From Bradyrhizobium sp. NFR13 (GTDB lineage: Bacteria; Pseudomonadota; Alphaproteobacteria; Rhizobiales; Xanthobacteraceae), in contig NZ_FOTP01000003.1 in assembly GCF_900114605.1 (NCBI RefSeq), positions 248,001-312,000 of the forward strand: a stretch of 64,000 nucleotides of DNA, read 5' to 3'. The notes under the pieces are model-generated. The model had not been told where the DNA came from and did no database searches. It saw nothing but the letters and a program-made list of their open reading frames with translations. Of the stretch, positions 43,627 through 63,988 are shown in pieces (positions within the stretch are counted from its first letter, which is position 1; each line of letters opens with the position of its first letter). The position numbers were made by a program, and so were the translations under genes.

Positions 43627-43685
43627 AGCATCCTCCCCTTCCATATCAGCGCTCAGGCTCTGCGGCCCGTGATGCGCATTGTTAG

Positions 43686-44570: not shown

Positions 44571-44579
44571 GGCCTCCCC

Positions 44580-45497
44580 TCACCCAAGCTTCGGCTCGCC
44601 GAGACCCGACAGTCGCTCGACATGGCGCACGGTGGCGATGAAATCGGATTCGCCATCTCCTTGCGCAACAAGCGATCCGTAGATTTCCCGCACCTGCGCC
44701 GCGAGTTGCAGTGGCACGCCGACGTGATGGCCGGCCCCGATGATGAGGTCGAGATCCTTGGCCATCTGCCGGCACGAGAAAGTGGACTCGAAGTTGCGCG
44801 TGGCCAGTGGCGGCGTCTTGTACTTGACCATCGGCGAGGCGATCGCGCTATCGTCCAGGACCTTGAGGATATCCGGCCAGGAGATTCCGCCCTTGCGCGC
44901 CAGCGCGAGGCTTTCGGCCATCATTCCGGCGGACACCGCGATCATTAGATTGACCGCGAGCTTGGCAAATCGCGCCTCTTCAGCCACGCCGAGATAGGTT
45001 TGCGCGCGGGTGAACGTCGCCAGCACCGGCTGAACCGCATCGAACGCGTTGCGCGGCCCCGACACGAAGCAGGTCAGCGCGCCGGTATGCGCGATCGCTG
45101 CATTGCCGGACACCGGAGCGCGCAGATAGGCAATACCCGTTGCCTCCGCCGCGACACCAACCTCCGCTGATAATTCGGCGCTGACAGTGCTCGTCTCGAG
45201 CAGAACCGCACCACGTGTCAGCTTGTTCAGCAAGCCGTCTGGTCCGAGCACCACGGAACGCAACGCCGCATCGTCGGGCAGCGATGTGAAGATGATCGAG
45301 TGGTTTGCAGCGGCGTCCGCCGCGGAGTTAGCCGCCTGAAGCCCAAGCTGCTGTGCCAACACCATGCGCTGCTGGCCCGGGTCGTAACCGGTGACACGAA
45401 TGCCGGCCTCCACCATGCGGCCGGCAATAGGCAAGCCCATCTTGCCGACACCGATCCAGGCTACGGCCTGTGCTTGATCCTTCGATGGGGTCGTCAT
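44580..45497 (-). CDS. Beta-hydroxyacid dehydrogenase (3-HIBADH/6-PGDH superfamily)
   Basis: 305 residues. N-terminal Rossmann word WIGVGKMGLPIAGRM (about residues 14-28), substrate motif APVSGNAAIAHTGALT (about 127-142) and catalytic Lys in FAKLAVNLMIAVSAG (about 178-192). The family oxidises or reduces 3-hydroxy acids, or tartronate semialdehyde, with NAD(P). Its start overlaps the amidohydrolase stop. Its place between a dioxygenase and an amidohydrolase suggests it acts on the released side-chain acid. Substrate unknown. Confidence 0.86.
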   Translation of the reverse strand: MTTPSKDQAQAVAWIGVGKMGLPIAGRMVEAGIRVTGYDPGQQRMVLAQQLGLQAANSAADAAANHSIIFTSLPDDAALRSVVLGPDGLLNKLTRGAVLLETSTVSAELSAEVGVAAEATGIAYLRAPVSGNAAIAHTGALTCFVSGPRNAFDAVQPVLATFTRAQTYLGVAEEARFAKLAVNLMIAVSAGMMAESLALARKGGISWPDILKVLDDSAIASPMVKYKTPPLATRNFESTFSCRQMAKDLDLIIGAGHHVGVPLQLAAQVREIYGSLVAQGDGESDFIATVRHVERLSGLGEPKLG

Positions 45498-47937: not shown

Positions 47938-48022
47938 TCCATCCCTGATCGTCGACGCCGTTAGGGCGCTTCTGCTGCATTGCACCAAGGCATGCAGCGG
48001 ATTTTCGCTACCATCATTCCCG

Positions 48023-48061
48023 TGCACACGTTTGTCAAGAAACTCTGCACACGTTTGTCAA
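48023..48061. promoter_or_regulatory. Tandem candidate LacI operators upstream of unit A
   Basis: TGCACACGTTTGTCAA occurs twice, exactly, at 48023-48038 and 48046-48061 (23 bp start to start). Each has a CG centre with partial symmetry (CACACGTTTG), the pattern of LacI-family sites. They lie in the spacer between the maleylacetate reductase gene and the divergent lacI-like gene. Confidence 0.7.
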
Positions 48062-48127
48062 TTTGTGCAAGATAAGGCATTCTCACGTGATCGTTAGCGG
48101 ATACGACGACGCGCGCGAGCAGGCTGG

Positions 48128-49279
48128 ATGGCGATGCCCAAAAAAACCAAGAACACCAAGAAGACGTCACCCGCGCTTCAGGAGCGGTCGTCGCGTAAGA
48201 CAATCATTGATGTCGCGAAGTGTGCTGGCGTCCATTGGTCAACGGTGTCACGCGGGCTCAATCCCGAGAAGCGCCACCTGATCTCCCCAGAAATGATCGA
48301 GCGTGTGGAAGCTTGCGCAAAGAAGCTGGGATATCGGGCCAACGCCATGGCATCGGCGCTTCGGACCCAGCGATCTCGCACCGTCGGCGTTATTGTTTCG
48401 AACCTTGGTGACCCCGTCCATCCCCCCATAGTGCGGGCGATTGAGGACCGGTTCGCCGAGATTGGATACGTCACGATCGTCGGCAATACCGACAACCATC
48501 CACTCAGACAGGCCGCGCTGATCGATCGTTTCATCCAGCAAGGCGTCGAGGGGCTGATCGTCGCGACCTTCGAGCGAAACGATCCGGGTATTGCGGCTTG
48601 CGTCGAGGCCAACATCCCCGTCGTCGCAGTGTTTCGCGATCCTGAAAGCGAATTCATTCCGAGCGTCCGGGTCGACGACGCGAAGGCAATGGAACTGGCG
48701 GTTCATCATCTCGCCGAGTGTGGGCACAGGCAAATTGCTCATGTCGGCGGCCCGCAAAATGTGTCGACGGGTTACCACCGCTATCGCGGCTTCCGGCGCG
48801 CTTGCAAAGTCTTGGCTCAAGACGGAGTTGCGCCCACTGCCGTCTTCGGTGAGGCTTTTACGGTCGAGGAAGGCGAGTTCGCTTGCGAACGTTTGCTGAC
48901 GGAGAACCCCAATATTACGGCGATTGTGGCTGGCAACGACATGCTGGCCGTAGGCTGCCTTCGGCACCTGAGAAACAAGGGCATTTCATGTCCCGGCAAC
49001 ATCTCGCTGGTTGGCATGAACGACATGCTGTTCATGGATGCGATAGCACCGGCGCTGACGACCATCAGTACGCCGACTGCGGAACTGGGAACGCAGGCGT
49101 CTCACATCCTTATTGCGATGATCAAGGGAACGCCGGTTCAAAACGATCGGATCGTACTGAAGCCGGTTTTGCTTGCGCGGGATTCTGTTGCCACGATCAA
49201 GCTGCCGACCAAGGCACGTTCGTCAGGTTTTCCTGACGCGGCCAAAGGAGAAGTCAGAATACAGCGTCGACAAAGCTAA
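48128..49279 (+). CDS. LacI-family transcriptional regulator (unit A)
   Basis: 383 residues. A basic N-terminal arm (MAMPKKTKNTKKTSP) precedes the LacI HTH IIDVAKCAGVHWSTVSRGLN (about residues 26-45), the hinge LGYRANAMASALRTQRS, and a periplasmic-binding-type effector domain (GVIVSNLGDPVHPP, HVGGPQNVSTGYHRY, GMNDMLFMDA). It faces the unit A operon, and two perfect repeats lie between. Its effector may be the imported compound or an intermediate. It is a paralogue of the regulator at 60218-61237. Confidence 0.92.
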   Translation: MAMPKKTKNTKKTSPALQERSSRKTIIDVAKCAGVHWSTVSRGLNPEKRHLISPEMIERVEACAKKLGYRANAMASALRTQRSRTVGVIVSNLGDPVHPPIVRAIEDRFAEIGYVTIVGNTDNHPLRQAALIDRFIQQGVEGLIVATFERNDPGIAACVEANIPVVAVFRDPESEFIPSVRVDDAKAMELAVHHLAECGHRQIAHVGGPQNVSTGYHRYRGFRRACKVLAQDGVAPTAVFGEAFTVEEGEFACERLLTENPNITAIVAGNDMLAVGCLRHLRNKGISCPGNISLVGMNDMLFMDAIAPALTTISTPTAELGTQASHILIAMIKGTPVQNDRIVLKPVLLARDSVATIKLPTKARSSGFPDAAKGEVRIQRRQS

Positions 49280-49961: not shown

Positions 49962-50050
49962 GTTTGGCTTCACGCTTTATGACAGTTCAATGAGCGGTTG
50001 ACCCACGCAGGGCGGAAATCGCCGCAGCGTCCGCACCGATGGAGACGACC

Positions 50051-50515
50051 ATGACTGCCAAGCCGGCCTTCGCAACCTCGCCGACCAATCCGCACGTCAA
50101 GGAAATCCAGACGTTGCCGGAGCGCAAGCCGGACATGCCCTATGCACCGGCCATCCGCGTCGAAGTGCCCTGCGGCATGTTGTTCATTTCCGGGGCGACG
50201 CCCTCGCCGCTCTATCACAAGCATCCCCACGTCCTCGAAGAGCACGACCATCCCAACTCGATCGAGGAGCAGACCCACCGTGCCATGCAGACGATCCAGT
50301 CGATCCTGGATCACGAAGGTCTGGCCTGGACCGACATCGTCAAGGTGACGAAATATCTCACCGACATCCGCGACCAGGACGGCATGGTGAAGGTGATGAA
50401 AGAGTATTTTGGCGACTGGACGCCAGCCAGCACCACGATCTGCATCAACCAGCTCTCGACGCAGGGCGCCCGCGTCGAGCTCGACATGATCGCCGCCATT
50501 CCCCCGCAAAAATAA
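50051..50515 (+). CDS. RidA/YjgF/2-aminomuconate deaminase-family protein
   Basis: 154 residues from the ATG at 50051, preceded by GGAG; an ATG at 50039 is 4 codons upstream. RidA words: GMLFISGATPSPLY, LAWTDIVKVTKYLTDIRD, and YFGDWTPASTTICINQLSTQ with VELDMIAAI. It is longer than RidA proper (about 130) because of a His-rich insert (YHKHPHVLEEHDH), like subfamilies found in aromatic clusters, such as aminomuconate deaminase. The RidA Arg is missing at its usual place (TTICINQL), so imine hydrolysis is not certain. First gene of unit B. Confidence 0.83.
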   Translation: MTAKPAFATSPTNPHVKEIQTLPERKPDMPYAPAIRVEVPCGMLFISGATPSPLYHKHPHVLEEHDHPNSIEEQTHRAMQTIQSILDHEGLAWTDIVKVTKYLTDIRDQDGMVKVMKEYFGDWTPASTTICINQLSTQGARVELDMIAAIPPQK

Positions 50516-50566
50516 GCCGGCTGGGACTTCCCGCAGGCCCCGGGTCCCGGGCCGACGAGGCCGACA

Positions 50567-52129
50567 ATGATGCACGGCACTGAAGCGCAAGGAGATCAAG
50601 CGGTGCCCGCCGCAACGGCAGCCGGCGGGCACCCGGCGGACCACGCCGCTGCGCCGCTGCTGCGCCTGATCGACATCGACAAATCCTTTCCTGGCGTGCA
50701 TGCGCTCAGAAGCGTCTCGCTCGACATCCATGCCGGCGAGGTCCACGTCATTCTTGGACAGAACGGCGCCGGCAAGTCGACGCTGATCAAGACACTGTAT
50801 GGCGCCCATGCGGCCGACAAGGGCCACATCGAGGTCGAAGGCCGGCGTGTTGCTGTCGCTCGCCCTGCCGATGCGAGCGCGCTCGGCATCGCCGTGATCT
50901 TCCAGGAATTCTCGCTGGTCCCCTATCTCGACATCGCGCAGAACATCTATCTCGGGCGCGAAGCCGCCTTCGCGCGCTTCGGCCTCATCGATTCCGCGGC
51001 GATGCATGCTGCCGCGCGCACTATCCTCGACGATCTTGGGCTCGACTACGACACCCACGCTTATGCCGCCGACCTCGGCGTGGCGCAGCAGCAGATGGTG
51101 GAGATCGCCAAGGCGCTGTCGCAGAACGCACGCGTGCTCGTCATGGACGAGCCGACCGCGGCCATTTCCGAGCGCGAGGCGGAGCGACTGTTCGCGACGA
51201 TCGCGCGACTGACGCAGAAGAACGTCGCAATCGTCTACATCTCCCATCGCATGAAGGAAGTTCAGATGCTCGGCGACCGCATCACCATCCTGCGGGACGG
51301 CGCCGTGGTGACGAGCGTGCTGCGCGACGAGATGAGCCAAACCGAGATGGTCGGCGCGATGATCGGCCGCCCGTCGGGATCGCAGCTCGCACGCACGCCG
51401 CGTGCGCCGGGTGATCCCATCCTGTTCGCCAGGGGCATCAGCACGGCGAAGCTGTCGGATATTTCCATCGAAATCCGTGCGGGTGAGGTGGTGGGGCTCG
51501 CCGGCCTGGTTGGATCCGGCCGGACCGAAGTCGTGCGTGCTCTGTTCGGCGCCGATCCAATCACTGGCGGCGAGATCGCTCTTTCAGGATCGCGCGCGCC
51601 GACAACGCTGGATGCGCGGGTCCGCGCAGGCATGGCACTGTTGCCGGAAGACCGTAAACGCGAGGGGCTCGCGCTCCCGCTCGACATTCGCGACAACGCG
51701 ACCGTGGCCTCGTTGTGGCGCCGCTTCACATCCGGCTGGTTTTCGCCCGCGGCCGCAGAGCGGGATACGCGGGGATTGATAGCGCAGCTCGGCATCGCTG
51801 CGCATGGTACACACCAGACCGTCCGCACGCTCAGCGGTGGCAACCAGCAAAAAGTCGTGCTGGCGAAATGGCTAGCGGCAGGGTCCAGGCTGTTCCTGCT
51901 GGATGAACCGACGCGCGGCGTCGACGTCGGCGCCAAGGCAGAAATCTATCGCTTGATCGACCAGCTCGTCGACGGCGGAGCCGGCGTCGTCGTCATCAGC
52001 TCGGAACTGCCGGAGCTCGTCCAGCTCTGCGATCGCGCCTATGTCATGCGCGACCACCGCATCGTCGGCCATCTCGATGACGACGCATTGACCGAACGAG
52101 CCATTCTCGAACTGGTGGTGCACCAATGA
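50567..52129 (+). CDS. Ribose-type ABC transporter ATPase (unit B)
   Basis: 520 residues, two ABC domains. Walker A GQNGAGKSTLIKTLYG (about residues 63-78), LGVAQQQMVEIAKALSQNAR and LVMDEPTAAISEREA; second half GLVGSGRTEVVRALFG and LSGGNQQKVVLAKWLAAGS. Highly similar to the unit A ATPase, with the same second-half words. The N-terminal ~40 residues are Ala/Gly/His rich and look disordered. It follows ridA by 51 bp and overlaps the next permease by 4 bp. Confidence 0.95.
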   Translation: MMHGTEAQGDQAVPAATAAGGHPADHAAAPLLRLIDIDKSFPGVHALRSVSLDIHAGEVHVILGQNGAGKSTLIKTLYGAHAADKGHIEVEGRRVAVARPADASALGIAVIFQEFSLVPYLDIAQNIYLGREAAFARFGLIDSAAMHAAARTILDDLGLDYDTHAYAADLGVAQQQMVEIAKALSQNARVLVMDEPTAAISEREAERLFATIARLTQKNVAIVYISHRMKEVQMLGDRITILRDGAVVTSVLRDEMSQTEMVGAMIGRPSGSQLARTPRAPGDPILFARGISTAKLSDISIEIRAGEVVGLAGLVGSGRTEVVRALFGADPITGGEIALSGSRAPTTLDARVRAGMALLPEDRKREGLALPLDIRDNATVASLWRRFTSGWFSPAAAERDTRGLIAQLGIAAHGTHQTVRTLSGGNQQKVVLAKWLAAGSRLFLLDEPTRGVDVGAKAEIYRLIDQLVDGGAGVVVISSELPELVQLCDRAYVMRDHRIVGHLDDDALTERAILELVVHQ

Positions 52130-53094
52130 CCGCGCCGACTCAATCGCAGCAGCGGCCAGGCGCTGGCCAGTTCTTCAGCGCCATCCCCGGCGCAGGCATC
52201 CTCCTGATCTTGATGCTGGCGCTGTTCACGATCGCCAATCCGCGTTTCGTGTCGCAGACCAATCTTGTCAATGTCGGCCTGCAGGCGTCGCTACTGCTGA
52301 TGATCGCCTTGCCGATGACGCTGATCATCCTGACCGAAGGCCTCGATCTGTCGGCCGGCGCGCTGCTCGGCCTGAGCGGCGTGATCGTGGCTGAAGCGCT
52401 TCTCGCAGGCTGGAGCGTGTTCGCTGCCTGCGCGATGGCATTCGCGATCAGCACCGCCTTCGGCGCCCTCAATGGCGTCCTGATCGCCTATCTGACACTG
52501 CCCGCTTTCGTGGTCACCCTGGGCACCATGGGATTGATGCAGGGCATCGCGCTGGTCATGACCAATGGTGATCCGGTCGGCGGTTTCACGCCCGCCATCG
52601 AGACCTTCTACCGCTCCCAACTCTGGATTTTCCCGATGCCGATCGTGGTGGCCGTGGCCCTCTATGCCGCACTCTGGCTGCTGCTGTACCGGACGCGACT
52701 CGGCAACTATGTGATCGCCATCGGCGGCAACAAGGATGCGCTGCGCCTCGCCGGCATTCGCGCCAATCTCGTTCATCTCGCCGTCTATGTGCTCGGCAGC
52801 GCGATCGTCGGCCTCTCCGCCGTGCTGCTCATCGGGCGCACCAATTCGGCGCATCCGACCGTCGGTATCGGCATGGAGTTCGAGGCGATCGCCGCAGTCG
52901 TGCTTGGCGGCACATCTTTCGAAAAGGGCCAGGGCTGGCTGTTCGGCGCGGTGCTCGGCGCGCTCGCCATCACCGTGCTGCGTAACGGCCTCAACATCCT
53001 CTCCGTCGACTCGTCGCTGCAAGTGGTCTGTATCGGCATCCTGCTCATTCTCGCGTTGCTGATCGACCGGGCGCGGAAACATTATTCGAGGTAG
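52126..53094 (+). CDS. Ribose-type ABC transporter permease 1 (unit B)
   Basis: 322 residues, RbsC/AraH family. Signature LPMTLIILTEGLDLSAGALL (about residues 64-83), GGTSFEKGQGWLFGAVLGAL near residue 263 and the end RARKHYSR. Corresponds one to one with the unit A permease at 39751-40701. The ATGA start overlaps the ATPase stop. Confidence 0.92.
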   Translation: MTAPTQSQQRPGAGQFFSAIPGAGILLILMLALFTIANPRFVSQTNLVNVGLQASLLLMIALPMTLIILTEGLDLSAGALLGLSGVIVAEALLAGWSVFAACAMAFAISTAFGALNGVLIAYLTLPAFVVTLGTMGLMQGIALVMTNGDPVGGFTPAIETFYRSQLWIFPMPIVVAVALYAALWLLLYRTRLGNYVIAIGGNKDALRLAGIRANLVHLAVYVLGSAIVGLSAVLLIGRTNSAHPTVGIGMEFEAIAAVVLGGTSFEKGQGWLFGAVLGALAITVLRNGLNILSVDSSLQVVCIGILLILALLIDRARKHYSR

Positions 53095-53099
53095 GCAGC

Positions 53100-54080
53100 A
53101 TGACGATCCCGGCAACGCTCGACACCCGATCTCCATCCCTGTCGCCCGATGCGTTGGCTTTGCTCGGCCGGCTCATTCTGATCGTGCTGATCGCGGGCGC
53201 GCTAACCGCGGTCGATCCCGGCTTCGCCTCGGTGAGCAATCTTCTGAACATGCTGCGGCAGGCGAGCCTGCTATTTCTCGTCGCGTCCGGCCTCACGCTC
53301 GTCATCATCGGAGGCGGCCTCGACCTGTCGGTCGGCTCGAATCTGACGCTGTCGGCCTGTCTTGCGGCAGCCGCGATCAAGACTACCGGCAATCCGTGGT
53401 ACGGCGTCGCAGTCGCCGTCACCAGCGGCACGCTCATCGGTTTTACCAATGGGCTGATGATCAACCGTTTGCGGCTGCCGCCCTTTCTCGCCACGTTCGG
53501 CATGTTATGGGTCGCACAAGGTGCCGCCTACTGGTTCATGGCGGGACAGACGATCTATGGCATGCCGATGTCGTTCCGCTACTTCGGCACAGGTTTTTTC
53601 CTTGGCGTGCCGCTGCCGATCTGGATCACTCTCGTGGTCTGCGTCGTCTGCAGCATTATCCTGCACCGCACGACCTTCGGCCGTGAAGCGTATTTCATGG
53701 GCGCAAACCAGACCGCGGCGCTTCTCTCGGGCATTGCCGTGGAGCGCCGACGGCTGCTGCTCTACGTGCTCAGCGGCCTGACTGCCGGCATCGCGGCCCT
53801 GGTCTATCTGGCGCGCCTCAATGCCGCCGAACCGGGCATCGGCGAACCCTTGCTGCTCCCCGCGATCGCGGCCGTGCTCGTCGGCGGCACATCCTTGTTC
53901 GGTGGCAGCGGAAACATCGTTGGCACTGTGCTTGGCGCCATCCTGCTCACCATCATCGTCAACGGGCTCAATCTGCTCAACGTCGCCGCCACCTGGCATC
54001 CCTTCGTCAACGGCGCCGTCGTCCTCATCGCCATCCTCGCGGACTTCATCGTCAGTCGGCGCCGGTCGGAGAGCGGATAG
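53100..54080 (+). CDS. Ribose-type ABC transporter permease 2 (unit B)
   Basis: 326 residues. LRQASLLFLVASGLTLVIIG and GGGLDLSVGSNLTLSACLAA (about residues 55-85), GGTSLFGGSGNIVGTVLGA near 265. Corresponds to the unit A permease at 38780-39754. It starts 5 bp after the preceding stop. Confidence 0.92.
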   Translation: MTIPATLDTRSPSLSPDALALLGRLILIVLIAGALTAVDPGFASVSNLLNMLRQASLLFLVASGLTLVIIGGGLDLSVGSNLTLSACLAAAAIKTTGNPWYGVAVAVTSGTLIGFTNGLMINRLRLPPFLATFGMLWVAQGAAYWFMAGQTIYGMPMSFRYFGTGFFLGVPLPIWITLVVCVVCSIILHRTTFGREAYFMGANQTAALLSGIAVERRRLLLYVLSGLTAGIAALVYLARLNAAEPGIGEPLLLPAIAAVLVGGTSLFGGSGNIVGTVLGAILLTIIVNGLNLLNVAATWHPFVNGAVVLIAILADFIVSRRRSESG

Positions 54081-54134
54081 GTCCGGCATCACACCTCACC
54101 ACCGTCTCGTCATCCACAACCAAAAGGGGCCACC

Positions 54135-55109
54135 ATGCGAACCACCAGACCACGTCGATGCGTCCTCGCTGCAATCATTTGCAGCACGTTGTCCAGTCCG
54201 GCTGCGTGGGCCGATGGTGAAGTAATTGCAGCCTTCACCAAAAACCAGGTGGACCCGCATTTCGAGGGCGTGCGCGCCGGCGTAGCGCAGATGGCGCAAC
54301 GGATGAACGCGACGGTCAAGAACTACACGCCGACCAAGCCGAACAACATCACCGAAGGCATGTCACAGCTCGAAGACGTCGGCGTCACCAAGCCGAATCT
54401 GATGCTGTTCATGCCGATCGATGCCAAGGCCCAGTTGCCAACGATCAAGCGCCTGATCGATTCCGGTCTGCCGATCATCAACTACAATGACCGTGGCGGC
54501 GACGCGCCGTTCCTGTCTTTCATCGGCCAGGACGATTACAAGCTCGGCTATGATATCGCCAAGACCCTGTTCGACCACCTCGGCGGCAAGGGCAATGTGG
54601 TGATCCTCGAAGGCGTCAAGGGCTCCACGACCGGTGACGAACGCAAGCGCGGCTTCGACGCTGCGGCCAAGGACTATCCGAATATCAAGATACTGGCCTC
54701 GCAGCCCACAAACTTCCAGCGCCTGCTCGGCATGCAGACAATGGAAAACCTGATCCAGCAGTTCAGCACCATCGACGGCGTGATCGCCGCTGCCGACGCG
54801 TCGGCGCTCGGCGCCATCGAGGCACTCAATGCCGCCGGTCGCAAGAACGTCGCTGTGGTATCGATCAACGGCGTTCCGGAGGCCGTCGAAGCCGTGAAAG
54901 CGGGCAGCCTACTGGCGATCGCCGAGTTTGACGGCTTCAAGATCGGCTGCGTCGCCACTGCAGTCGGCCTCAACGCCATTCGTGGCCAGAGCGCACCGAA
55001 GCAGGTCACAATTCCAGGCGCGATCATCACCAAGGCGAACTACGCGCCGTGGCTCATCCCCTACAAGGATCGTACCTGCCCGACACCCGACGCCTATATC
55101 GCGAAATAA
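54135..55109 (+). CDS. Ribose-type ABC transporter substrate-binding protein (unit B)
   Basis: 324 residues with a signal peptide (CVLAAIICSTLSSPAAWA, cut near residue 26). RbsB-like fold: VIAAFTKNQVDPHFEGVRAG, PIINYNDRGGDAPFLSFIGQ, VVILEGVKGSTTGDERKRG and AAADASALGAIEALNAAG. Paralogue of 37772-38743. Periplasmic ligand receptor for the unit B importer; ligand unknown. It is the last gene of the operon, closed by a terminator. Confidence 0.92.
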   Translation: MRTTRPRRCVLAAIICSTLSSPAAWADGEVIAAFTKNQVDPHFEGVRAGVAQMAQRMNATVKNYTPTKPNNITEGMSQLEDVGVTKPNLMLFMPIDAKAQLPTIKRLIDSGLPIINYNDRGGDAPFLSFIGQDDYKLGYDIAKTLFDHLGGKGNVVILEGVKGSTTGDERKRGFDAAAKDYPNIKILASQPTNFQRLLGMQTMENLIQQFSTIDGVIAAADASALGAIEALNAAGRKNVAVVSINGVPEAVEAVKAGSLLAIAEFDGFKIGCVATAVGLNAIRGQSAPKQVTIPGAIITKANYAPWLIPYKDRTCPTPDAYIAK

Positions 55110-55156: not shown

Positions 55157-56125
55157 TTACTTGGCCGCCCCGTCCGTCGACATCGCGACGAGCTTTCCGT
55201 AACGCTCCGCATCGCTGCGCAGCTCCGTCTCGAAGGCCTCAGGCGTCGAGCTGGTGATGGTGACGCCCTGGGCCGCATACTGCTGGATCAGTGCGGGATC
55301 GGTCAGCAATTCGGCGAGATCTTTCGCGATCTGGCTGATGATGGGCTTAGGTGTCGCGGCCGCGGCGAGCATGCCGAACCAGCTGTCATAGGCGAAGTCC
55401 GGCAGGCCGGCCTCGGCGAAGGTTGGCACGTCGGGCAGCTGCGGCAGGCGCGCCTTGCCGGTGACGGCCAGCGCCCGCAGCTTGCCGGACTGGATCAAAT
55501 CGCCGCCGACATTGAAGAAGGTGAAGGCCATGTTGGTGTCGCCGCGCATGACGCTGATCTGGGATTCCGGCTGCCCGCGATGTGGGATCAGCACCATCTT
55601 GGTGCCGGTGAGGCTCTTGAACAGTTCGGCGGCGATGCCGGTCGATGAGCCGACACCCGCAGAACTGTAGCTCAAGCTATCCGGCTTCGCTTTCGCTGCG
55701 GCGATGAAATCGGCGAGCGTCTTGAACGGCGAGTCGGGCGGTACGATCAAGATCACGGCGGTGGTCGCGACGCGGCTGATGGCGGCAAAATCCTTGATCG
55801 GGTCGAAGTTGAGGCCCTTGTTGACCACGCCGACCACGCTATGGCCGTTTGAGGTCAACATGATCTGCGAACCGTCGGAGGGTCCCTTGGCAATGCTGCT
55901 GACGCCTGCGATTCCAGGCCGGTTCTCGACAATGACCTGCTGCTTCCATTTCGCAGTAAGCTTCTCGGCCACGGTGCGCGCGAGAATGTCGGTCATGCTG
56001 CCGCCGGAAAACGGCACCACGATGCGGATGAGTTGGTTCGGATAAGTCTGTGCGACGGCCCCGGTGCCCATCAACGCCGTCGTCGCGGCAAGGCCAGAGC
56101 CGATCATAAACTGGCGGCGATCCAT
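55157..56125 (-). CDS. TctC/Bug-family tripartite tricarboxylate-type binding protein
   Basis: 322 residues. The N-terminus MDRRQFMIGSGLAATTALMG carries a twin-arginine-like start and a hydrophobic signal. Mature words: YPNQLIRIVVPFSGGSMTDI (about residues 28-47), VIVENRPGIAGVSS, GSQIMLTSNGHSVV and PHRGQPESQISVMRGD are typical of Bug proteins. It binds a carboxylate in the periplasm. No tctA/tctB permease genes are adjacent, so it is an orphan receptor that may work with a remote permease or in signalling. Last gene of unit C. Confidence 0.9.
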   Translation of the reverse strand: MDRRQFMIGSGLAATTALMGTGAVAQTYPNQLIRIVVPFSGGSMTDILARTVAEKLTAKWKQQVIVENRPGIAGVSSIAKGPSDGSQIMLTSNGHSVVGVVNKGLNFDPIKDFAAISRVATTAVILIVPPDSPFKTLADFIAAAKAKPDSLSYSSAGVGSSTGIAAELFKSLTGTKMVLIPHRGQPESQISVMRGDTNMAFTFFNVGGDLIQSGKLRALAVTGKARLPQLPDVPTFAEAGLPDFAYDSWFGMLAAAATPKPIISQIAKDLAELLTDPALIQQYAAQGVTITSSTPEAFETELRSDAERYGKLVAMSTDGAAK

Positions 56126-56158
56126 GTGTTTCTCCCTGAAGTATCAAATGCCGGGCTT

Positions 56159-56509
56159 TCAGCCTCTTGCGGTGTTGGGCAGTGGCATTGCGAGCAATAC
56201 TACTGCCGATCGTTTCGTCTCATTGCGCAAGGCGCGCGTCTCGTTCGGCGCGATGCGGCAGGAATCCCAGGTACCGAGGGTGGCGATGCCATCGGGCGTC
56301 TCGAATGTGACCTCGCCTTCGAGGACCACATAGAATTTCTCTTCCGGCGAGGCCGAGGGCGTGATGCCGCCGCCCGGCAGGATCTGGCTCATCCCGAGCC
56401 ACATGACGTCGCCCGGCCCGGCGTCGCGGCCCTGCAGGCGGAACATCCGCATGTCATTGTGGCCGGGAGCCTCATAGCGCGGGGCATCGTTCAGGCGGAC
56501 GACATGCAT
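56159..56509 (-). CDS. Single cupin-domain protein
   Basis: 116 residues from the ATG at 56509, 4 bp after the stop of the upstream oxidoreductase gene. Cupin motif 1 is GGGITPSASPEEKFYVVLEG (about residues 47-66), in which the usual first two His are replaced by Pro/Ser/Ala; motif 2 is GTWDSCRIAPNETRALRNET. The metal site is therefore poorly conserved. Similar small cupins occur in aromatic and dicarboxylate operons as isomerases or regulators; none is proven here. Confidence 0.75.
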   Translation of the reverse strand: MHVVRLNDAPRYEAPGHNDMRMFRLQGRDAGPGDVMWLGMSQILPGGGITPSASPEEKFYVVLEGEVTFETPDGIATLGTWDSCRIAPNETRALRNETKRSAVVLLAMPLPNTARG

Positions 56510-56513
56510 GGCT

Positions 56514-57533
56514 TCACCCGTTCGGCTGAAAAACGAGACGGTCGCGCGAGGAGCCGAGCACGGCGACATAGGCTTCCGCGGCGCGCTCCAGCGGGTAAAT
56601 CGCGTCCGGCTTGATCGGAAACGGTTTCAACGCACCGCTGGCGAAACCCGGCACCAGCTCACGCAGGATCTCGCCGGCTTCAGGCGATGTCAGCGATAGC
56701 GAGTCGACGCCGAAGTAAGTGTGCTTGCCGCGGTAGAAGGCGAAGATATCGAACGGCACGGTGGCCTTGGTAGAGGCAATGAAGATCTGGCGGCCGAGAT
56801 GCGCGAGCGATTTCGTGCCGGCGTCGTAATAGGGTTCGCCGACGGTATTGTAGACGATGTCCACGCCCTTGCCGCCGGTGAGTTCGCGCACTGTCGCTGC
56901 GACGTCGTTGCGGCAAGAATCGATGACCGTCACCTCACCATGGGCATGGCCGGCATATGGTTCGTCTTTACGGACAACGCCGATCACGCGGGCGCCCTGC
57001 CATGATGCGATCTGCGTCGCCGCCTGCCCAACCTTGCCGTTGAGGCCGAGGATTAACACCGTCTCGCCGGGTTTCGGCATGCCGCTGCGGCGAAAACCCT
57101 CTTGCGCGGTGACGAAGGGCACACCGATTCCGGCGGCCTCGGCGAGGCTGATATTTGCCGGCTTCTCGACCAGCGCGGACGCCTCGACGACCAGATGCGT
57201 GGCATGGGTGCCGTCGCGGCCGATCCCGAGCTGGCCGGACGAGCCAAATACTTCCTTGCCGATCAGATCGGCCGGGCCTTCGATCACGACGCCGGCGAAG
57301 TCACGACCGGGCGTACGCGGAAATACGGCATGCGGCATCAGGCCGAGCGTCGCCTTGGCGTCCGACGGATTGATCGCAGCAGCCTTGATCTCGACCAGCG
57401 CATCGCCCGGCCTTGTGCAGGCGAGTGTGTGCTGCTCGATGCCGAGCACCACATTCTCGATGCGATCGGCCTTGGCGGCGACCCGCAGGCATGTTGCGAT
57501 GACGCTGGCGGAAGTCCTTGCGGCGGCAGTCAT
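56514..57533 (-). CDS. Zinc-type/quinone-type MDR oxidoreductase
   Basis: 339 residues from the ATG at 57533 (MTAAARTSAS). MDR fold: GDALVEIKAAAINPSDAKAT (about residues 43-62), PRTPGRDFAGVVIEG, and nucleotide site LILGLNGKVGQAATQIASWQ (about 160-179). No zinc-ligand Cys/His set was seen, so it is the quinone oxidoreductase type that uses NADPH. It may reduce a quinone or enone formed from hydroxyquinol. It follows the BKACE gene by 19 bp. Confidence 0.85.
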   Translation of the reverse strand: MTAAARTSASVIATCLRVAAKADRIENVVLGIEQHTLACTRPGDALVEIKAAAINPSDAKATLGLMPHAVFPRTPGRDFAGVVIEGPADLIGKEVFGSSGQLGIGRDGTHATHLVVEASALVEKPANISLAEAAGIGVPFVTAQEGFRRSGMPKPGETVLILGLNGKVGQAATQIASWQGARVIGVVRKDEPYAGHAHGEVTVIDSCRNDVAATVRELTGGKGVDIVYNTVGEPYYDAGTKSLAHLGRQIFIASTKATVPFDIFAFYRGKHTYFGVDSLSLTSPEAGEILRELVPGFASGALKPFPIKPDAIYPLERAAEAYVAVLGSSRDRLVFQPNG

Positions 57534-57552
57534 GTCAATCCTCGAATGCTGG

Positions 57553-58446
57553 TTATGCGGCGCTCGGCAAACCGAACAATGCGCGCGCCTCGGCAGGCGT
57601 CGCGATCTGTGCGCCAAGTTCCTCGATGATACGGCGCGCCTTCTCCACCATCACGGCGTTCGATGGCGCCAATACGCCGCGGCCGAGCATCACCGCATCT
57701 TCCAGGCCGGTGCGGGCATGGCCGCCGGCGAGGACCGACTGCGCCACCATGGGAAATGTGGAGCGGCCGATGCCAATGGCCGTGAAATGCGCATCCCGCG
57801 GCAGCAGGCCCCGCGCATACAGCACCGTTTCCGGCGACGGCTGGAATCCGTATTTCACGCCCATCACGAAGGAGGTGAGCGCCGGGCCGCTGAGTGTTCC
57901 ATCAGCGAGAAGATCGTGCAGCAGCGCGATATCGCCGGAATCGAACAGTTCGATCTCGGGTTTCACGCCGGCCTCGCGGATGACCTTCGCCATGCGGCGC
58001 ACGTTGCCGGGGGTGTTGATCACCACCTGCCCACCGGAATTCATGGTGTTGAGGTCGAGCGTACAGATGTCCGGCTTCAGCGCCGTGATATGGGCGACGC
58101 GTTCTTCCGGATTCATCAGCGTGGTGCCCGCGGCGGCGACCTTGGGGTCATCCTGCGACGGCACAAAGCGACCACCGGGGCCGGTGGTAATGTTGAGAAC
58201 CAGGTTGCGATTACGCGCGCGAATGCGCGCCACGACGTCCTGATAATATTCAAGCTTCATGGAGGGCGCGCCAGTGCCGGGCTCTCGCACATGGATATGC
58301 GCGACCGCCGCACCGGCTTCTGCGGCGCCGAGGCAGGCGTCGGCGATTTCTTCGGGCGTGATCGGCAGATGCGGGGTCTGGTCCGGCCGCGTCAGATTGC
58401 CGGTGACGGCACAAGTGATGACGATCTTGTCGAGCATCGGGCGCAT
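57553..58446 (-). CDS. Beta-keto acid cleavage enzyme (BKACE), unit C
   Basis: 297 residues from the ATG at 58446, preceded by AAGGAGAG. BKACE (DUF849) signatures: KIVITCAVTGNLTRPDQTPH, PITPEEIADACLGAAEAGAA, the zinc site HIHVREPGTG (His50, His52) and SMKLEYYQDVVARIR. The family condenses a beta-keto acid with acetyl-CoA to give acetoacetate and a new acyl-CoA; some members act on 3-oxoadipate. In this ring-cleavage setting 3-oxoadipate is the natural candidate: with acetyl-CoA it would give succinyl-CoA and acetoacetate. Confidence 0.92.
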   Translation of the reverse strand: MRPMLDKIVITCAVTGNLTRPDQTPHLPITPEEIADACLGAAEAGAAVAHIHVREPGTGAPSMKLEYYQDVVARIRARNRNLVLNITTGPGGRFVPSQDDPKVAAAGTTLMNPEERVAHITALKPDICTLDLNTMNSGGQVVINTPGNVRRMAKVIREAGVKPEIELFDSGDIALLHDLLADGTLSGPALTSFVMGVKYGFQPSPETVLYARGLLPRDAHFTAIGIGRSTFPMVAQSVLAGGHARTGLEDAVMLGRGVLAPSNAVMVEKARRIIEELGAQIATPAEARALFGLPSAA

Positions 58447-58456
58447 CAATCTCTCC

Positions 58457-59203
58457 TTACAACGCCCGGCCGCCGTCAACGACGATCAGCGAGCCGGTGG
58501 AATAGGTCAGGTGCGTGGCGCAGGCCGCGATTGCGCGGCCGACATCCTCGGCCGTCGCAACACGCTTGAGCGGAATGGTCCCCGCGACCTTATCAAGCGC
58601 GGCCGCATCGCGGCCCGGCACAAAGTCAGTGGCCACCACGCCCGGCGACACCGCCATCACGCGCACCACCGGCGCCAATGCCCGCGCGAGCGACTTGGTC
58701 ATGGTGTCGATGCCGGCCTTGATCGCCGCGTAAGCCAGATTGGAGCCGACGCCATTCAGCCCCGCAATCGAGGATACGTTGACGATGAGCCCATCGCCGC
58801 TCGCCTTGAGCAGCGGCGCGAAAGCACGGATGGCTGCAAATTGGCCGCGCCAGTTCACCTTGAACATATCGTCGATGAACTCGTCGGTCAGCGCGTCGAG
58901 ATCGCCGATCGGAATCGGTTTCGTGTAGCCTGCGGTATTGACGAGAATATCGCAGCGACCGAACGCTCGCTCCACCTCGCCGGCAAGCGCCTTAAGCGTT
59001 GCACTGTCTTCGACGACCGCGCGTCTGGCGAGATGGCCCTCGCCCGGAAGGCTGGCCAGCAATGCGTTGGCAGCTGCCTCGCCGGAGCGCCAGGTCACGA
59101 CGACATGGGCGCCTTCGGCGGCCAAGGCTTGCGCGGCCGCGGCGCCGATGCCGCCCGAACCGCCGATCACCACGGCTACCTTGTTCATGAGAGTATCCGA
59201 CAT
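58457..59203 (-). CDS. SDR family oxidoreductase, unit C
   Basis: 248 residues from the ATG at 59203 (MSDTLMNKV), 7 bp after the dioxygenase stop; the ATG at 59188 would trim five residues. SDR words: VVIGGSGGIGAAAAQALAAE (about residues 10-29), LVNTAGYTKPI (NAG variant NTAG), VSSIAGLNGVG and YAAIKAGIDTM with catalytic Tyr/Lys, and RVMAVSPGVVATDF. Ends GSLIVVDGGRAL. Substrate unknown; ring or side-chain ketone reduction is possible. Confidence 0.87.
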   Translation of the reverse strand: MSDTLMNKVAVVIGGSGGIGAAAAQALAAEGAHVVVTWRSGEAAANALLASLPGEGHLARRAVVEDSATLKALAGEVERAFGRCDILVNTAGYTKPIPIGDLDALTDEFIDDMFKVNWRGQFAAIRAFAPLLKASGDGLIVNVSSIAGLNGVGSNLAYAAIKAGIDTMTKSLARALAPVVRVMAVSPGVVATDFVPGRDAAALDKVAGTIPLKRVATAEDVGRAIAACATHLTYSTGSLIVVDGGRAL

Positions 59204-59210
59204 CGACAGC

Positions 59211-60101
59211 TCACTTGATGGGAGGATGCGGGAGCACGGCCTCGCCAGGCTCCATGACGAACGTGTAGTTAAGGCTGAACCATTCGCCCGTAACATCCGG
59301 TGCTGGCGGCGCGCCTTCGCCCTTGCGGAAATCGCCGATCAGCGCGCGCGTCACGCCGAATACGACGTCGCTCTCCAGATGTTCGTCGTCATCGACAAAG
59401 ATCTGCGTGATCAGCGTCTTGAAGCCTGGCCTGAAGGCAAGCACATGCAGATGCGCCGGCCGGAACGGATGCCGGCGCTGCGCGGCCAGCATCTCCCCGG
59501 TCGGACCATGGGTCGGCACCGGATAGCCAGCAGGCTTGACCGAGCGGAACGCGAAGCGGCCGTTCGCATCGGTCTCAAACACGCCGCGCAAATTCATGTC
59601 AGCCTGACCCGCGTCCTGGTTTTCGTACATTCCCGATGGCGAGGCCTGCCAGACATCAACGCTGACACCCGGGAGCGGCGCTCCCAGTGCGTCGGCGATG
59701 CGGCAATCGACGAACAGTGGCGCACCGGGCGTCGGCGAACGCAAGATCGAGGCACCATTCTCCACGCGCGGAGCGTTCGCCCGCCAGAACGGCCCTAGCA
59801 AAGCTGCGGCGGTCTCGCTCGCGCCATCCTGGCCGTTGTTCAACAGGCAGACCAATGTCGAGAGCCCGACTGCATCGCTGAACAACACGCCCTCGTTATG
59901 GGTGTCGTTTGTCGCCTGGCCGATGCGGTTCAGGAAATCGATAGCAAACTCGAATTCCGCCTCGGTCAGCCGAACCTCGCGGGCAAATTCGTGCAGATGA
60001 CGAACGAAAGTGGCCATGACCGTGCGCAACCGCTCGTTCGGCGCACCGCTCATGGCGGCAAGCACAACGTCGGTCACATCCTCCTGACGCGTGATGATCA
60101 T
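59211..60101 (-). CDS. Hydroxyquinol 1,2-dioxygenase-like intradiol dioxygenase, unit C
   Basis: 296 residues from the ATG at 60101 with GAGGGAG upstream; the longer ORF to 60191 runs through the operator and is not used. N-terminal helical domain (MATFVRHLHEFAREVRLTEA) and catalytic sandwich with Fe(III) ligands Tyr in PSGMYENQD, Tyr in AGYPVPTHGPTG, and both His in HPFRPAHLHVLAF. Same subfamily as 43686-44570 but clearly diverged. First gene of unit C, divergent from a LacI gene. It may act on hydroxyquinol or a substituted analogue. Confidence 0.92.
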   Translation of the reverse strand: MIITRQEDVTDVVLAAMSGAPNERLRTVMATFVRHLHEFAREVRLTEAEFEFAIDFLNRIGQATNDTHNEGVLFSDAVGLSTLVCLLNNGQDGASETAAALLGPFWRANAPRVENGASILRSPTPGAPLFVDCRIADALGAPLPGVSVDVWQASPSGMYENQDAGQADMNLRGVFETDANGRFAFRSVKPAGYPVPTHGPTGEMLAAQRRHPFRPAHLHVLAFRPGFKTLITQIFVDDDEHLESDVVFGVTRALIGDFRKGEGAPPAPDVTGEWFSLNYTFVMEPGEAVLPHPPIK

Positions 60102-60140
60102 CGACACTCCCTCACATTGCGATTTTTTGGCTGTCCACGC

Positions 60141-60179
60141 TGCGCAATCGATTGCACATTTAGTGCAATCGATTGCGCA
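60141..60179. promoter_or_regulatory. Paired LacI operators upstream of unit C
   Basis: The 12-bp perfect palindrome GCAATCGATTGC, with a CG centre, occurs at 60144-60155 and 60165-60176, 21 bp apart. The surrounding bases extend this into a near-perfect 39-bp inverted repeat (TGCGCAATCGATTGCAC and its complement). It lies between the dioxygenase gene and its divergent LacI gene, overlapping the latter's expected promoter. Confidence 0.85.
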
Positions 60180-60217: not shown

Positions 60218-61237
60218 ATGACGACAATCAAAGATGTGGCGCGCGAGGTGGGAGTGCACCCCTCCACCGTGTCGCGCGCGCTCGACCCTGCCCGCCGCGG
60301 ACGGATCGGCGAGCCGGTCGTGCGCCGGATTCTGGAAGCAGCGGAGCGGCTGGGTTACCGTCCGGACACGGTGGCCGCGAGTCTGCGCAGTGGCCGTTCG
60401 AACATGGTCGGCATCATCGTCCCGGACATCGCGAACCCCGTCTTCTCGCCGATCATCGGCGGCCTCGAAGACGTGCTATCGGCGCGCGGCTACGCGCTGA
60501 TTGTCGCCGACCCGCAACCGCAACGGACGGGCACCGACGACATCGTTCAACGGCTCGTGGCGCGCCGCGTGGATGGCCTCGTGCTGGCGAATGTCGCGCT
60601 CAAGGATAATTCGATCGAGCGTTGTCTGAGTTGGAAAGTCCCTGTCGTGCTTGTCAATCGCGCGGAGGCTGAGGCGCGTGTGCCTTCGGTGGTCTCGGAC
60701 GATGTGGCCGGCATGCGGCTCGCGGTTGCGCATCTTCTCGAGCTTGGACATCGTCACATCCTCCACCTCGCCGGCCCGCAAATGCTATCGACCGGATCGC
60801 TTCGCCGCCGCGGTTTCTTGGAGGCAATGCACGAAGCCGGTTTCGCGCCGGCCGACAATGATATCGAAGAGGCTGAAGCCTTCACGCGCGAGGCAGGACA
60901 CGCTGCCGCACTCAGACTGCTCGCACGACAGCCTGAGGCCACCGCCATCGTCGCAGCCAACGATCTCCTCGCGCTCGGCATCTATGAAGCGTTGCGCGAA
61001 ACGGGCCGGCGATGTCCGGAAGATCTGTCAGTGATCGGTCACAACGACATGCCGCTGGTGGATCTGGTGGATCCGCCGCTATCCACGATCCGCATCAGCC
61101 ACCGCGAGATGGGTGAACAGACCGGCCAACTCATGCTCGACCTGATCGAAGGCGTCCGCGGCGATGTGCCTTATGTCGTTACAGCGCCCCTGCTCGTCGT
61201 GCGCCGCTCGACACAGCCACCAAGGATCTCGCGATAA
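60218..61237 (+). CDS. LacI-family transcriptional regulator (unit C)
   Basis: 339 residues from the ATG at 60218; an in-frame TTG at 60173 falls inside the operator and is rejected. HTH: TIKDVAREVGVHPSTVSRAL (about residues 3-22), hinge LGYRPDTVAASLRSGRSN, and effector domain GIIVPDIANPVFSPIIGGLE, HLAGPQMLSTGSLRRRG, GHNDMPLVDL. Paralogue of the unit A LacI (same AGPQ-STG words). Faces the unit C operon across the palindromes. Confidence 0.93.
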   Translation: MTTIKDVAREVGVHPSTVSRALDPARRGRIGEPVVRRILEAAERLGYRPDTVAASLRSGRSNMVGIIVPDIANPVFSPIIGGLEDVLSARGYALIVADPQPQRTGTDDIVQRLVARRVDGLVLANVALKDNSIERCLSWKVPVVLVNRAEAEARVPSVVSDDVAGMRLAVAHLLELGHRHILHLAGPQMLSTGSLRRRGFLEAMHEAGFAPADNDIEEAEAFTREAGHAAALRLLARQPEATAIVAANDLLALGIYEALRETGRRCPEDLSVIGHNDMPLVDLVDPPLSTIRISHREMGEQTGQLMLDLIEGVRGDVPYVVTAPLLVVRRSTQPPRISR

Positions 61238-62081: not shown

Positions 62082-63005
62082 TTAAACCTCCAGCTTGTCC
62101 CCACCCTTCAGATCAAGCATCTCGCGCGCTTCATCCGGGGTCGCAATCTTAAGACCCAAACCTTCGACGATCTTGCGCGCGAGGGTGACCTGCTCGGCAT
62201 TCGAGGAAGCCATGCGACCTGGCGCCGCCCACAGCGAATCTTCCAGACCGACGCGGATATTGCCGCCCATGGCCGCGGCCATCGCCGCGATCGGCAGTTG
62301 ATTGCGACCAGCGCCGAGCACCGACCAGACATACTTGTCGCCGAACAAACGATCCGCCGTGCGCTTCATGTGCAACACGTCTTCGGGATGTGCACCGGTG
62401 CCGCCCTGCAGGCCAAACACCGTCTGGATGAACAGTGGCGGCTTCACCAGACCCTGGTCGAGGAAATAGGCCAGGTTATAGAGATGCGCGGTATCGTAAC
62501 ATTCGAATTCGAAGCGCGTGCCCGTCTCCGCCAGCGTCTTCAGGACGTATTCAATGTCCTGGAACGTGTTGCGGAACACGATGTCCTTGTTCTGCAGGTG
62601 CTTCAACTCCCAGTCATGCTCGAATTTCTTGAAACGGTTCAGCATGCCGAAGAAGCCGAAATTCATCGAGCCCATATTGAGCGACGCGACTTCCGGCTTG
62701 TAGACCGCCGCAGGCCGCACGCGCTCGTCCACCGTCATGGTCGGCGCACCACCGGTGGTCAGGTTGATCACCGCATTGGAGCGCTGCTTGATGATCTTCA
62801 GGAACGGCGCGAAGGCCTCTGGGCTTTGATCCGGCTGACCGGTTTTCGGGTTGCGCGCATGCAGATGCACGATCGCGGCGCCCGCTTCCGCCGCATCCAC
62901 GGCAGCATCAGCGATTTCCTGCGGCGTTACCGGTAATGCCTTGGACATCGAGGGCGTATGGATCGCCCCCGTCACGGCACAGGTGATGATGACTTTGCGG
63001 CTCAT
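62082..63005 (-). CDS. Beta-keto acid cleavage enzyme (BKACE), second copy
   Basis: 307 residues from the ATG at 63005, preceded by GGAGA. BKACE words: KVIITCAVTGAIHTPSMSKA, PVTPQEIADAAVDAAEAGAA, zinc site HLHARNPKTGQPDQ (His47, His49), NLTTGGAPTMTVDER and SVLGAGRNQLPIAAM. It resembles 3-dehydrocarnitine cleavage enzymes more than the unit C copy does, and is paired with a carnitine-dehydrogenase-like gene. It would join acetyl-CoA and a 3-keto acid to give acetoacetate and the matching CoA ester or betaine product. Confidence 0.92.
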   Translation of the reverse strand: MSRKVIITCAVTGAIHTPSMSKALPVTPQEIADAAVDAAEAGAAIVHLHARNPKTGQPDQSPEAFAPFLKIIKQRSNAVINLTTGGAPTMTVDERVRPAAVYKPEVASLNMGSMNFGFFGMLNRFKKFEHDWELKHLQNKDIVFRNTFQDIEYVLKTLAETGTRFEFECYDTAHLYNLAYFLDQGLVKPPLFIQTVFGLQGGTGAHPEDVLHMKRTADRLFGDKYVWSVLGAGRNQLPIAAMAAAMGGNIRVGLEDSLWAAPGRMASSNAEQVTLARKIVEGLGLKIATPDEAREMLDLKGGDKLEV

Positions 63006-63040
63006 GTCAGTCTCCGTCTTACTGTTGAGAGATCGTATGA

Positions 63041-63988
63041 TCAGGATTTGCCGCCCTGTGCGGCCTTGTGGGCCGCCAGTGCTGCAAGGCGTTCGTTGCG
63101 TTGCTGCGTCAGCGCCGCGATCCGGTCCGGCGACGGCTGATGCGGCCAGGCCGCTATCACCCGGTCGACATTCGGGCTTTGATAGACTTCGGGTCCTGCC
63201 GATGCGGCAGCCAGCTCTTTGTAGAAACCGGTATAGCGCGCGCAGTAATCGGGGATGCCACCGGGCGCATTGAGTTCGATGGTTTCCAGCGGGCCGAGAA
63301 ACGACCAGCGCAGACCAAGGCCGTCCTTTACGGTGTGGTCGAGATCTTCCGCAGAGACATAACCTTCGCCGACAAGACGAAACGCCTCTGCCAGCAACGC
63401 GCCCTGCAGACGGTTGAGAATGAAGCCGTTGATCTCGCGGTTAACTGTGACAGGCACCTGCCCGATCTCGCGATAGATCTCGCGCGCACGGTCGATGGTC
63501 TCATGCGAGGTCCAGGATGCGCCGCATAGTTCGACCAGCGGCACGAGATGTGGCGGATTGACGGGATGACCGACAAGACATCGCGCCCGCCCCGGAAGCA
63601 TTTCAGTAAAGCGGGACGCCACAATGGCCGAAGTCGATGACGCCAGCAACGCATCCGGAGGCGCAAGACGATCCAGCTCCGAAAAGATGGCGATCTTCTG
63701 ATCGACATTTTCAGGGCCATTCTCCTGTACGAAGGTCACGTCCTTGACGGCCTCTGCCAAACTTGCCGCGATCGATATTCTTGCAGCCGCGCCGTCTGGA
63801 TCACTGGCAAGCCCATGACGGGCCAGCGCATGCAGTTCATCGCGAATAAGCTGAGGCGCAGCTTCCAGCGTCGGGCGATGCGGATCGGTCAATCGCACGG
63901 TCCAACCTGCGCGGGCGAAGATCGTTGCCCAGGCCCGCCCAATCAAACCAACTCCTACGATCGCGACGTGCCGATTGTTCGTTGTCAT
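63041..63988 (-). CDS. 3-hydroxyacyl-CoA dehydrogenase-like (lambda-crystallin/carnitine dehydrogenase type)
   Basis: 315 residues from the ATG at 63988; an in-frame GTG at 64000 at the window edge adds four. Rossmann AIVGVGLIGRAWATIFARAG (about residues 9-28), SSSTSAIV (about 112) and catalytic HPVNPPHLVPLVELCGA (about 137-153), then NREINGFILNRLQGALLAEA. These match lambda-crystallin (L-gulonate 3-dehydrogenase) and L-carnitine dehydrogenase. It lies 35 bp upstream of the BKACE gene, so a 3-hydroxy acid is probably oxidised then cleaved. Confidence 0.87.
   Translation of the reverse strand: MTTNNRHVAIVGVGLIGRAWATIFARAGWTVRLTDPHRPTLEAAPQLIRDELHALARHGLASDPDGAAARISIAASLAEAVKDVTFVQENGPENVDQKIAIFSELDRLAPPDALLASSTSAIVASRFTEMLPGRARCLVGHPVNPPHLVPLVELCGASWTSHETIDRAREIYREIGQVPVTVNREINGFILNRLQGALLAEAFRLVGEGYVSAEDLDHTVKDGLGLRWSFLGPLETIELNAPGGIPDYCARYTGFYKELAAASAGPEVYQSPNVDRVIAAWPHQPSPDRIAALTQQRNERLAALAAHKAAQGGKS

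Follow-up and report, generated by a model that had tools for sequence, protein, structure and literature searches.

Unit C is a run of genes in a 64,000-nucleotide stretch of Bradyrhizobium sp. NFR13 DNA (contig NZ_FOTP01000003.1, positions 248,001 to 312,000), hereafter referred to as the window and numbered from its first letter. Its genes, read from 60101 down to 55157, all lie on the minus strand with intergenic gaps of at most 33 bases, and encode an intradiol dioxygenase (DIOX-C), a short-chain dehydrogenase/reductase (SDR), a member of the beta-keto acid cleavage enzyme (BKACE) family (BKACE-C), a medium-chain dehydrogenase/reductase (MDR), a small cupin and a periplasmic receptor (Table 1). 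Genes were called with a simple script, and the start of DIOX-C, whose longest frame begins at 60191, was picked to agree with its orthologues. A previous sequence-only reading had proposed that this operon pairs an intradiol dioxygenase with a BKACE that finishes hydroxyquinol catabolism in place of PcaIJ and PcaF. The pairing is borne out by the gene set and by a conserved neighbourhood, and the existence and conservation of unit C are confirmed; it is probably a catabolic operon for a trihydroxybenzene-type intermediate, probably controlled by the LacI-family protein encoded divergently from it.

Table 1. Features of unit C and of its surroundings in the window
Feature	Position	Strand	Profile or match	Remark
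Intradiol dioxygenase, hydroxyquinol type (DIOX-C)	59211-60101	minus	PF00775/PF04444	
SDR dehydrogenase	58457-59203	minus	PF13561/PF00106	
BKACE family member (BKACE-C)	57553-58446	minus	PF05853, 324 bits	
MDR family reductase, quinone/enone type	56514-57533	minus		candidate C=C reductase
Small cupin	56159-56515	minus		
Bug/TctC periplasmic receptor	55157-56125	minus	PF03401, 174 bits	
LacI-family regulator	60218-61237	plus	PF00356, PF13377	divergent from unit C
Palindrome GCAATCGATTGC, copy 1	60144-60155		exact match	likely operator (predicted)
Palindrome GCAATCGATTGC, copy 2	60165-60176			21 bases from copy 1; similar spacing in relatives
RidA-like gene and sugar-type ABC importer	50039-55109	plus		ATPase, two permeases, binding protein
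Maleylacetate reductase of unit A	46858-47937	minus	3HL0, 412 bits; 3W5S, 398 bits	
Second BKACE	62082-63005		3,5-dioxohexanoate:acetyl-CoA acetone transferase model, 536.5 vs 430 bits	beyond the LacI gene

To follow this arrangement across genomes, the best 80 of 122 loci with relatives of BKACE-C were kept, of which the 65 with enough flanking sequence were counted and 15 with short flanks omitted. Neighbours were recognised by identity limits of our own setting (dioxygenase 45, SDR 47, MDR 44, cupin 45, LacI 38, maleylacetate reductase 45 and amidohydrolase 35 percent). In 53 of the 65 loci a dioxygenase gene is found at most 4.5 kb from the BKACE gene, and these 53 also contain the SDR (52), the MDR (51), the cupin (40) and, within the same distance of the BKACE, the LacI gene (34); a maleylacetate reductase is found within 10 kb in five of them. 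Dioxygenase and SDR share a strand in 52/52 cases, as do SDR and BKACE in 52/52 and BKACE and MDR in 48/51. Since such a scan selects for BKACE, a separate draw was made of 297 genomes of the order, our own genome included. BKACE-C relatives occur in 29 of these and the dioxygenase in 19, with both present in 12 against 1.9 expected (Fisher p 2e-9, a value that takes the genomes as independent despite their kinship, the 12 coming from 5 genera); in 12/12 the coordinates place the two genes side by side. Counted by genus, the figures are 16 and 9, respectively, among the 122 genera of the draw. The tie between BKACE-C and a hydroxyquinol-type dioxygenase is strong. Four loci (L054, L058, L060 and L072) have the SDR, BKACE, MDR and cupin genes and no adjoining dioxygenase; in 4/4 a related copy lies elsewhere in the genome at 56-65% identity, that of L054, at 56%, being at the level of a sister clade. 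L064 and L069, cut off by contig ends, were excluded from this last count.

Judged by its residues, DIOX-C can be assigned to the hydroxyquinol type. Its best match in the PDB is the hydroxyquinol 1,2-dioxygenase 1TMX (200 bits; the dioxygenase of unit A, another gene group of the window, reaches 298 bits). All 57 DIOX-C orthologues keep the four iron ligands of 1TMX, two Tyr and two His, as well as Asp83, Gly109, Pro110, Phe111 and Arg218, which we take to belong to the 1TMX pocket. The pocket deviates at position 107, where 57/57 have Leu and 1TMX has Val, and at position 108, where Leu stands in place of Phe. Seven of the 297 genomes carry the dioxygenase without BKACE-C, of which six were inspected (G084 was left out). 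All six of their dioxygenases fall into one clade (99% by the SH-like approximate likelihood ratio test) that is apparently nested in the unit-C group (85%; quick tree). In two near relatives, close kin of each other, the gene sits between pcaF and pcaH, which supports a beta-ketoadipate fate of the cleavage product; another two genomes show no obvious partner gene. In G036 (L171 7184-9349) a unit-C-type dioxygenase (63% identity) lies apart from the SDR-BKACE-MDR-cupin set and adjoins a gene resembling, by its sequence start, a salicylate-hydroxylase-type FAD monooxygenase.

The promoter common to unit C and the divergent LacI gene contains two exact copies of the palindrome GCAATCGATTGC, to which we infer that a LacI-type protein binds. 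The 80 related loci (1.40 Mb) hold 52 exact copies versus 0 of the reversed word, an imperfect control; 0.08 copies of a random 12-mer would be expected in that length. Of these copies, 34 fall between the LacI gene and the dioxygenase, and the palindrome is present in 36/58 dioxygenase-bearing loci versus 0/22 of the remainder. Within the window, where allowing up to two mismatches gave 8 matches against 7.5 expected by chance and only exact copies were therefore used, it marks the unit C promoter alone, no copy preceding either the ABC importer or unit A. In several relatives the same site stands between a RidA gene and an ABC importer (L071), between RidA and LacI (L100, L104), or next to amidohydrolase genes or the importer that adjoins these (L043, L084, L115). 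The palindrome was rejected as the mark of a wide regulon in this genome, which has three exact sites, two of them at unit C; the third (C13:276259) lies in the intergenic stretch ahead of a small gene on the minus strand for which no catabolic link was seen. With at most one mismatch, 36 genomic places match, versus 4 for the reversed control.

The profile (cut-off 24.8 bits), the predicted TIM-barrel fold and the zinc ligands all assign BKACE-C to the BKACE family. Its AlphaFold model, with a predicted local distance difference test score (pLDDT) of 92.6, superposes on 3C6C with a Z of 42.5 and a root-mean-square deviation of 1.6 over 290 residues, and the ligands H50, H52 and E249 are present in 56/56 dioxygenase-linked rows of the alignment. 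The window protein keeps the compared metal and catalytic positions except for a Tyr-to-Phe change, which the 3-oxoadipate family has too; these positions, except where PMC12871164 or PMC10470551 names them, are what we take to be the corresponding residues of Kce. An Arg in a loop (R93) is invariant in the 56 dioxygenase-linked and the 19 other BKACE-C rows and might bind a second carboxylate; members of the 3-oxoadipate family likewise carry an Arg in this loop. At the place of the amine-binding Glu14 of Kce, Leu stands in 50/56 BKACE-C rows and Leu or Val in 12/12 usable rows of the 3-oxoadipate family.

In the pathway that we propose, the dioxygenase would open the ring between two hydroxyls, to judge from its pocket residues. 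The MDR resembles quinone/enone reductases and has Asn at what is presumably the usual place of a zinc cysteine; this zinc-free enzyme may saturate the C=C bond of the cleavage product and would replace the function of maleylacetate reductase. Following the chemistry of its family, BKACE-C would condense a beta-keto dicarboxylate with acetyl-CoA, most simply 3-oxoadipate to give acetoacetate and succinyl-CoA. The SDR would either prepare the ring upstream or make the beta-keto acid. We adopt this 3-oxoadipate-type ending tentatively, giving it somewhat less than an even chance. In its favour are the conserved gene set and the co-occurrence in the separate draw, the dioxygenase pocket, the zinc ligands and loop Arg of BKACE-C together with the Leu at the Glu14 place, the carriers without a maleylacetate reductase homologue, and the related dioxygenases between pcaF and pcaH.

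The supply of maleylacetate reductase by unit A, assumed in the sequence-only reading, was examined in 33 unit-C genomes, four of which are Tardiphaga or the window's own and not independent. L071 stands outside these counts, and in the 32 loci behind the other counted genomes the dioxygenase is within 4.5 kb in 31 and slightly further in L097. No maleylacetate reductase homologue was found at 1e-30 in 11 of the 33, and G026 has one at 39% identity only. In 10 of the 11 carriers without the homologue the MDR gene is found no more than 4.5 kb from the BKACE, and in L099 at about 9 kb. The unit A gene itself can be identified as a maleylacetate reductase from its closest solved relatives of that name, 3HL0 and 3W5S (its best match, 3JZD at 423 bits, is named only an iron-containing alcohol dehydrogenase). 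The need of unit C for this enzyme is weakened by the carriers that lack a homologue and by the operon's own candidate reductase.

Several observations weigh against a 3-oxoadipate-type ending. BKACE-C misses the curated 3-oxoadipate:acetyl-CoA acetyltransferase model NF053568 (171.5 vs 350 bits) and stays under cut-off with all substrate-specific NCBIfam models listed. In the BKACE tree, which has some long branches and omits L127 (the odd row among 13 in the alignment, its frame misread), it branches with 3C6C and BsfD, the 3-oxoadipate rows forming a separate clade with 100/100 support; subfamily placement, one of the checks proposed earlier, thus puts it in another clade. The solved members of the 3-oxoadipate model family, 3CHV and 3NO5, share 33-36% identity with BKACE-C, and pcaHG-like genes, judged by sequence starts, adjoin 3 of 11 fetched members. 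Such a canonical 3-oxoadipate BKACE is found in 11 of the 33 unit-C genomes and PcaF in 27, 6 being without PcaF over the cut-off; the 3 that have neither over the cut-off count in favour of this ending. The SDR and the cupin would be superfluous for the 3-oxoadipate route. The association with the dioxygenase is itself incomplete: 12/65 loci have none nearby, and 17 of the 29 genomes with a BKACE-C relative (E 1e-90) have none at that cut-off. The metagenome-assembled genome (MAG) G041 (L074) contains SDR, BKACE and MDR and no dioxygenase match genome-wide at 1e-40; among 20 other genomes with a dioxygenase-free locus, 11 have a copy at 54% identity or more and 9 have none, and where the arrangement is BKACE-Bug-SDR (5 genomes), the dioxygenase is absent from 4 and present as a 54% copy in 1. 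On the BKACE tree, linkage to the dioxygenase is clustered but requires at least 7 changes, cut-off contigs being scored as unlinked. Our genome also encodes a BKACE paralogue about 75-77% identical (C6:413k) that has no adjoining dioxygenase and whose substrate may differ. Finally, sister-clade dioxygenases in L166 (9430-10275) and L167 (9836-10729) adjoin hydratase-like and HpaI-aldolase-like genes, judged by sequence starts, which suggests that the cleavage product is processed differently there and speaks against one single fate.

The neighbours of the paralogue (L031 7470-8372; G000 C6:413k) resemble, by their sequence starts, an Ldh2-type dehydrogenase, a quinone oxidoreductase and an MFS transporter. 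One relative of BKACE-C, L041, comes from a MAG titled cyanobacterial, yet its BKACE is 93% identical to that of the window, and the contig is likely mis-binned.

BKACE-C could instead cleave another or a substituted beta-keto acid (a substituted or hydroxylated 3-oxo dicarboxylate, for instance), which the adjacent SDR would form from a 3-hydroxy acid. Excerpts of PMC6365646 describe an SDR and a BKACE acting together in this manner in deoxyribonate oxidation, and in our loci the SDR accompanies the BKACE with the dioxygenase (52/53) as well as without it (9/12). The separate canonical 3-oxoadipate BKACE of the 11 carriers fits the same explanation. Two observations speak against it: BKACE-C is strongly tied to a dioxygenase that opens rings and to a reductase of enone type, and in L087 and L088 dioxygenase, BKACE and MDR are present while no SDR lies within 4.5 kb. 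We regard it as a real, if doubtful, possibility.

It is a good deal less probable that the 3-oxoadipate of units A and C leaves by the usual PcaIJ/PcaF route while BKACE-C serves a side reaction or some other route. The enzymes for that exit are at hand: as the check proposed earlier reveals, the genome contains PcaF (TIGR02430, 690 vs 597 bits) beside pcaHG and at least two transferase pairs of PcaIJ/ScoAB type, with a third alpha subunit passing the same model, although these models do not separate PcaIJ from ScoAB. The sequence-only reading was right that no pca genes occur in the window; elsewhere in the genome pcaF and pcaHG are present. BKACE-C therefore fills no missing step, and the proposed substitution for PcaIJ and PcaF is not supported, PcaF being present in most carriers as well. 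Against a side role stand the place of BKACE-C inside a dioxygenase operon across genera and the six carriers without PcaF over the cut-off. The earlier reading finds partial support in the tie to the dioxygenase and in the loop Arg; under the 3-oxoadipate-type ending unit C would provide an additional exit under local control, parallel to that through PcaF, rather than a substitute for missing genes.

Chemistry like that of BsfD, in which a beta-keto acid is acetylated with loss of CO2 to yield a beta-diketone instead of acetoacetate, is very unlikely: BsfD (9ZSC) is the best PDB sequence match of BKACE-C (325 bits, 52% identity) and shares the loop Arg (its Arg91, placed near the phosphonate in excerpts of PMC12871164) and the Phe (its Phe166), but that Phe (F168, in 56/56 dioxygenase-linked rows) is no marker of chemistry, BsfD has Phe where 54/56 BKACE-C rows have Asn (N136; Thr in 2), and the operon looks catabolic. 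The Phe occurs in all 75 BKACE-C relatives, in 12/12 usable 3-oxoadipate rows and in 3C6C, contrary to the statement in the same excerpts that all BKACE sequences have a catalytic Tyr; the Tyr-to-Phe change was accordingly rejected as a sign of non-cleaving activity. Table 7 of PMC4922564 reports some DUF849 groups as non-cleaving enzymes, and gives beta-ketoadipate activity for a subgroup of G3 and negatively charged substrates for G4. The cupin was not favoured as a diketone-cleaving dioxygenase, the HxH motif, which we take to mark the metal site, not having been found in its sequence; its model (pLDDT 94.1) has TM1459 as nearest fold, which says little on function.

The classical hydroxyquinol pathway consists of a dioxygenase and a maleylacetate reductase followed by PcaIJ/PcaF. 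Unit C has a related dioxygenase; unlike unit A, which has both the dioxygenase and the reductase, it lacks an iron-type maleylacetate reductase and has MDR and BKACE instead. A BKACE in place of PcaIJ/PcaF has been proposed for the pca operons of Methylobacterium (a G4 BKACE, 'kce'; PMC8963497, PMC12379598) and, in Cupriavidus necator (Ralstonia eutropha) H16, for the cat (catechol) operon (PMC6449761), with the same ending in succinyl-CoA and acetoacetate. Unit C differs from these in its hydroxyquinol-type dioxygenase, its own candidate reductase, its LacI gene and the clade of its BKACE. BsfD, of the flavophos cluster, shares the loop Arg and Phe but is biosynthetic and non-cleaving according to the excerpts of PMC12871164, and the deoxyribonate cluster, with SDR and BKACE genes together as in unit C, acts on a sugar acid, no dioxygenase being among the genes that the excerpts of PMC6365646 describe. 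No description of such an operon was found in a literature search restricted to open-licence papers. What is new is the link of a further BKACE clade to a dioxygenase of hydroxyquinol type, within an operon flanked by a LacI gene, the replacement of PcaIJ/PcaF by BKACE having already been proposed for the protocatechuate and catechol routes.

The operon is found in many soil bacteria, and an acetoacetate-releasing ending would be a plausible alternative beside the classical thiolase. If true, endings of this kind would not be confined to the protocatechuate and catechol routes and would include a second BKACE clade, a substrate would be assigned to a clade whose closest solved relative, BsfD, performs other chemistry, and the simple genomic signature dioxygenase-SDR-BKACE-MDR, often with GCAATCGATTGC, would identify many alphaproteobacteria and some betaproteobacteria as likely carriers of the trait.

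The RidA-adjoining ABC importer possibly serves unit C. RidA/ABC importer genes accompany unit C in L038, L039, L071 and L080 as well, and L172 has a diverged importer without RidA. Amidohydrolases occur in 11/65 loci, RidA-like genes in 7/80 and molybdenum-hydroxylase-like small subunits, found by motif, in three; their recurrence hints at nitrogen-containing substrates. Amidohydrolases and RidA stand beside the same LacI palindrome in several relatives, and unit C might serve as a lower pathway, widespread but so far undescribed, for aromatic or cyclic compounds that contain nitrogen; amidohydrolase and RidA deamination would lead to a hydroxyquinol-type diol, and MDR and a BKACE clade with no earlier tie to 3-oxoadipate would finish without maleylacetate reductase, CoA-transferase or thiolase. 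We consider this proposal rather unlikely. HyuA-like (hydantoinase/oxoprolinase) genes, identified by motif, lie near unit C in L042, L053, L062, L070 and L073, which are several Rhodospirillales MAGs and a Bosea.

Unit A (37772-49279) has a makeup reminiscent of unit C and comprises a sugar-type ABC importer, a LacI-like gene, a hydroxyquinol-type dioxygenase, an amidohydrolase, the maleylacetate reductase and a GlcD-like oxidase. Its enzyme genes adjoin unit C in L037 (Tardiphaga robiniae) too, and some of them do so in L081 (Bradyrhizobium agreste). The second BKACE of the window is taken as a system separate from unit C. Its region (62082-63985) includes a 3-hydroxyacyl-CoA-dehydrogenase-like gene, and excerpts of PMC10470551 describe such a dehydrogenase and lyase (triacetate-forming) pair in phloroglucinol degradation by Clostridium scatologenes. 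Past the second BKACE, beyond the window, lie genes of a branched-chain-type ABC importer, judged by sequence starts, and two FAD monooxygenases.

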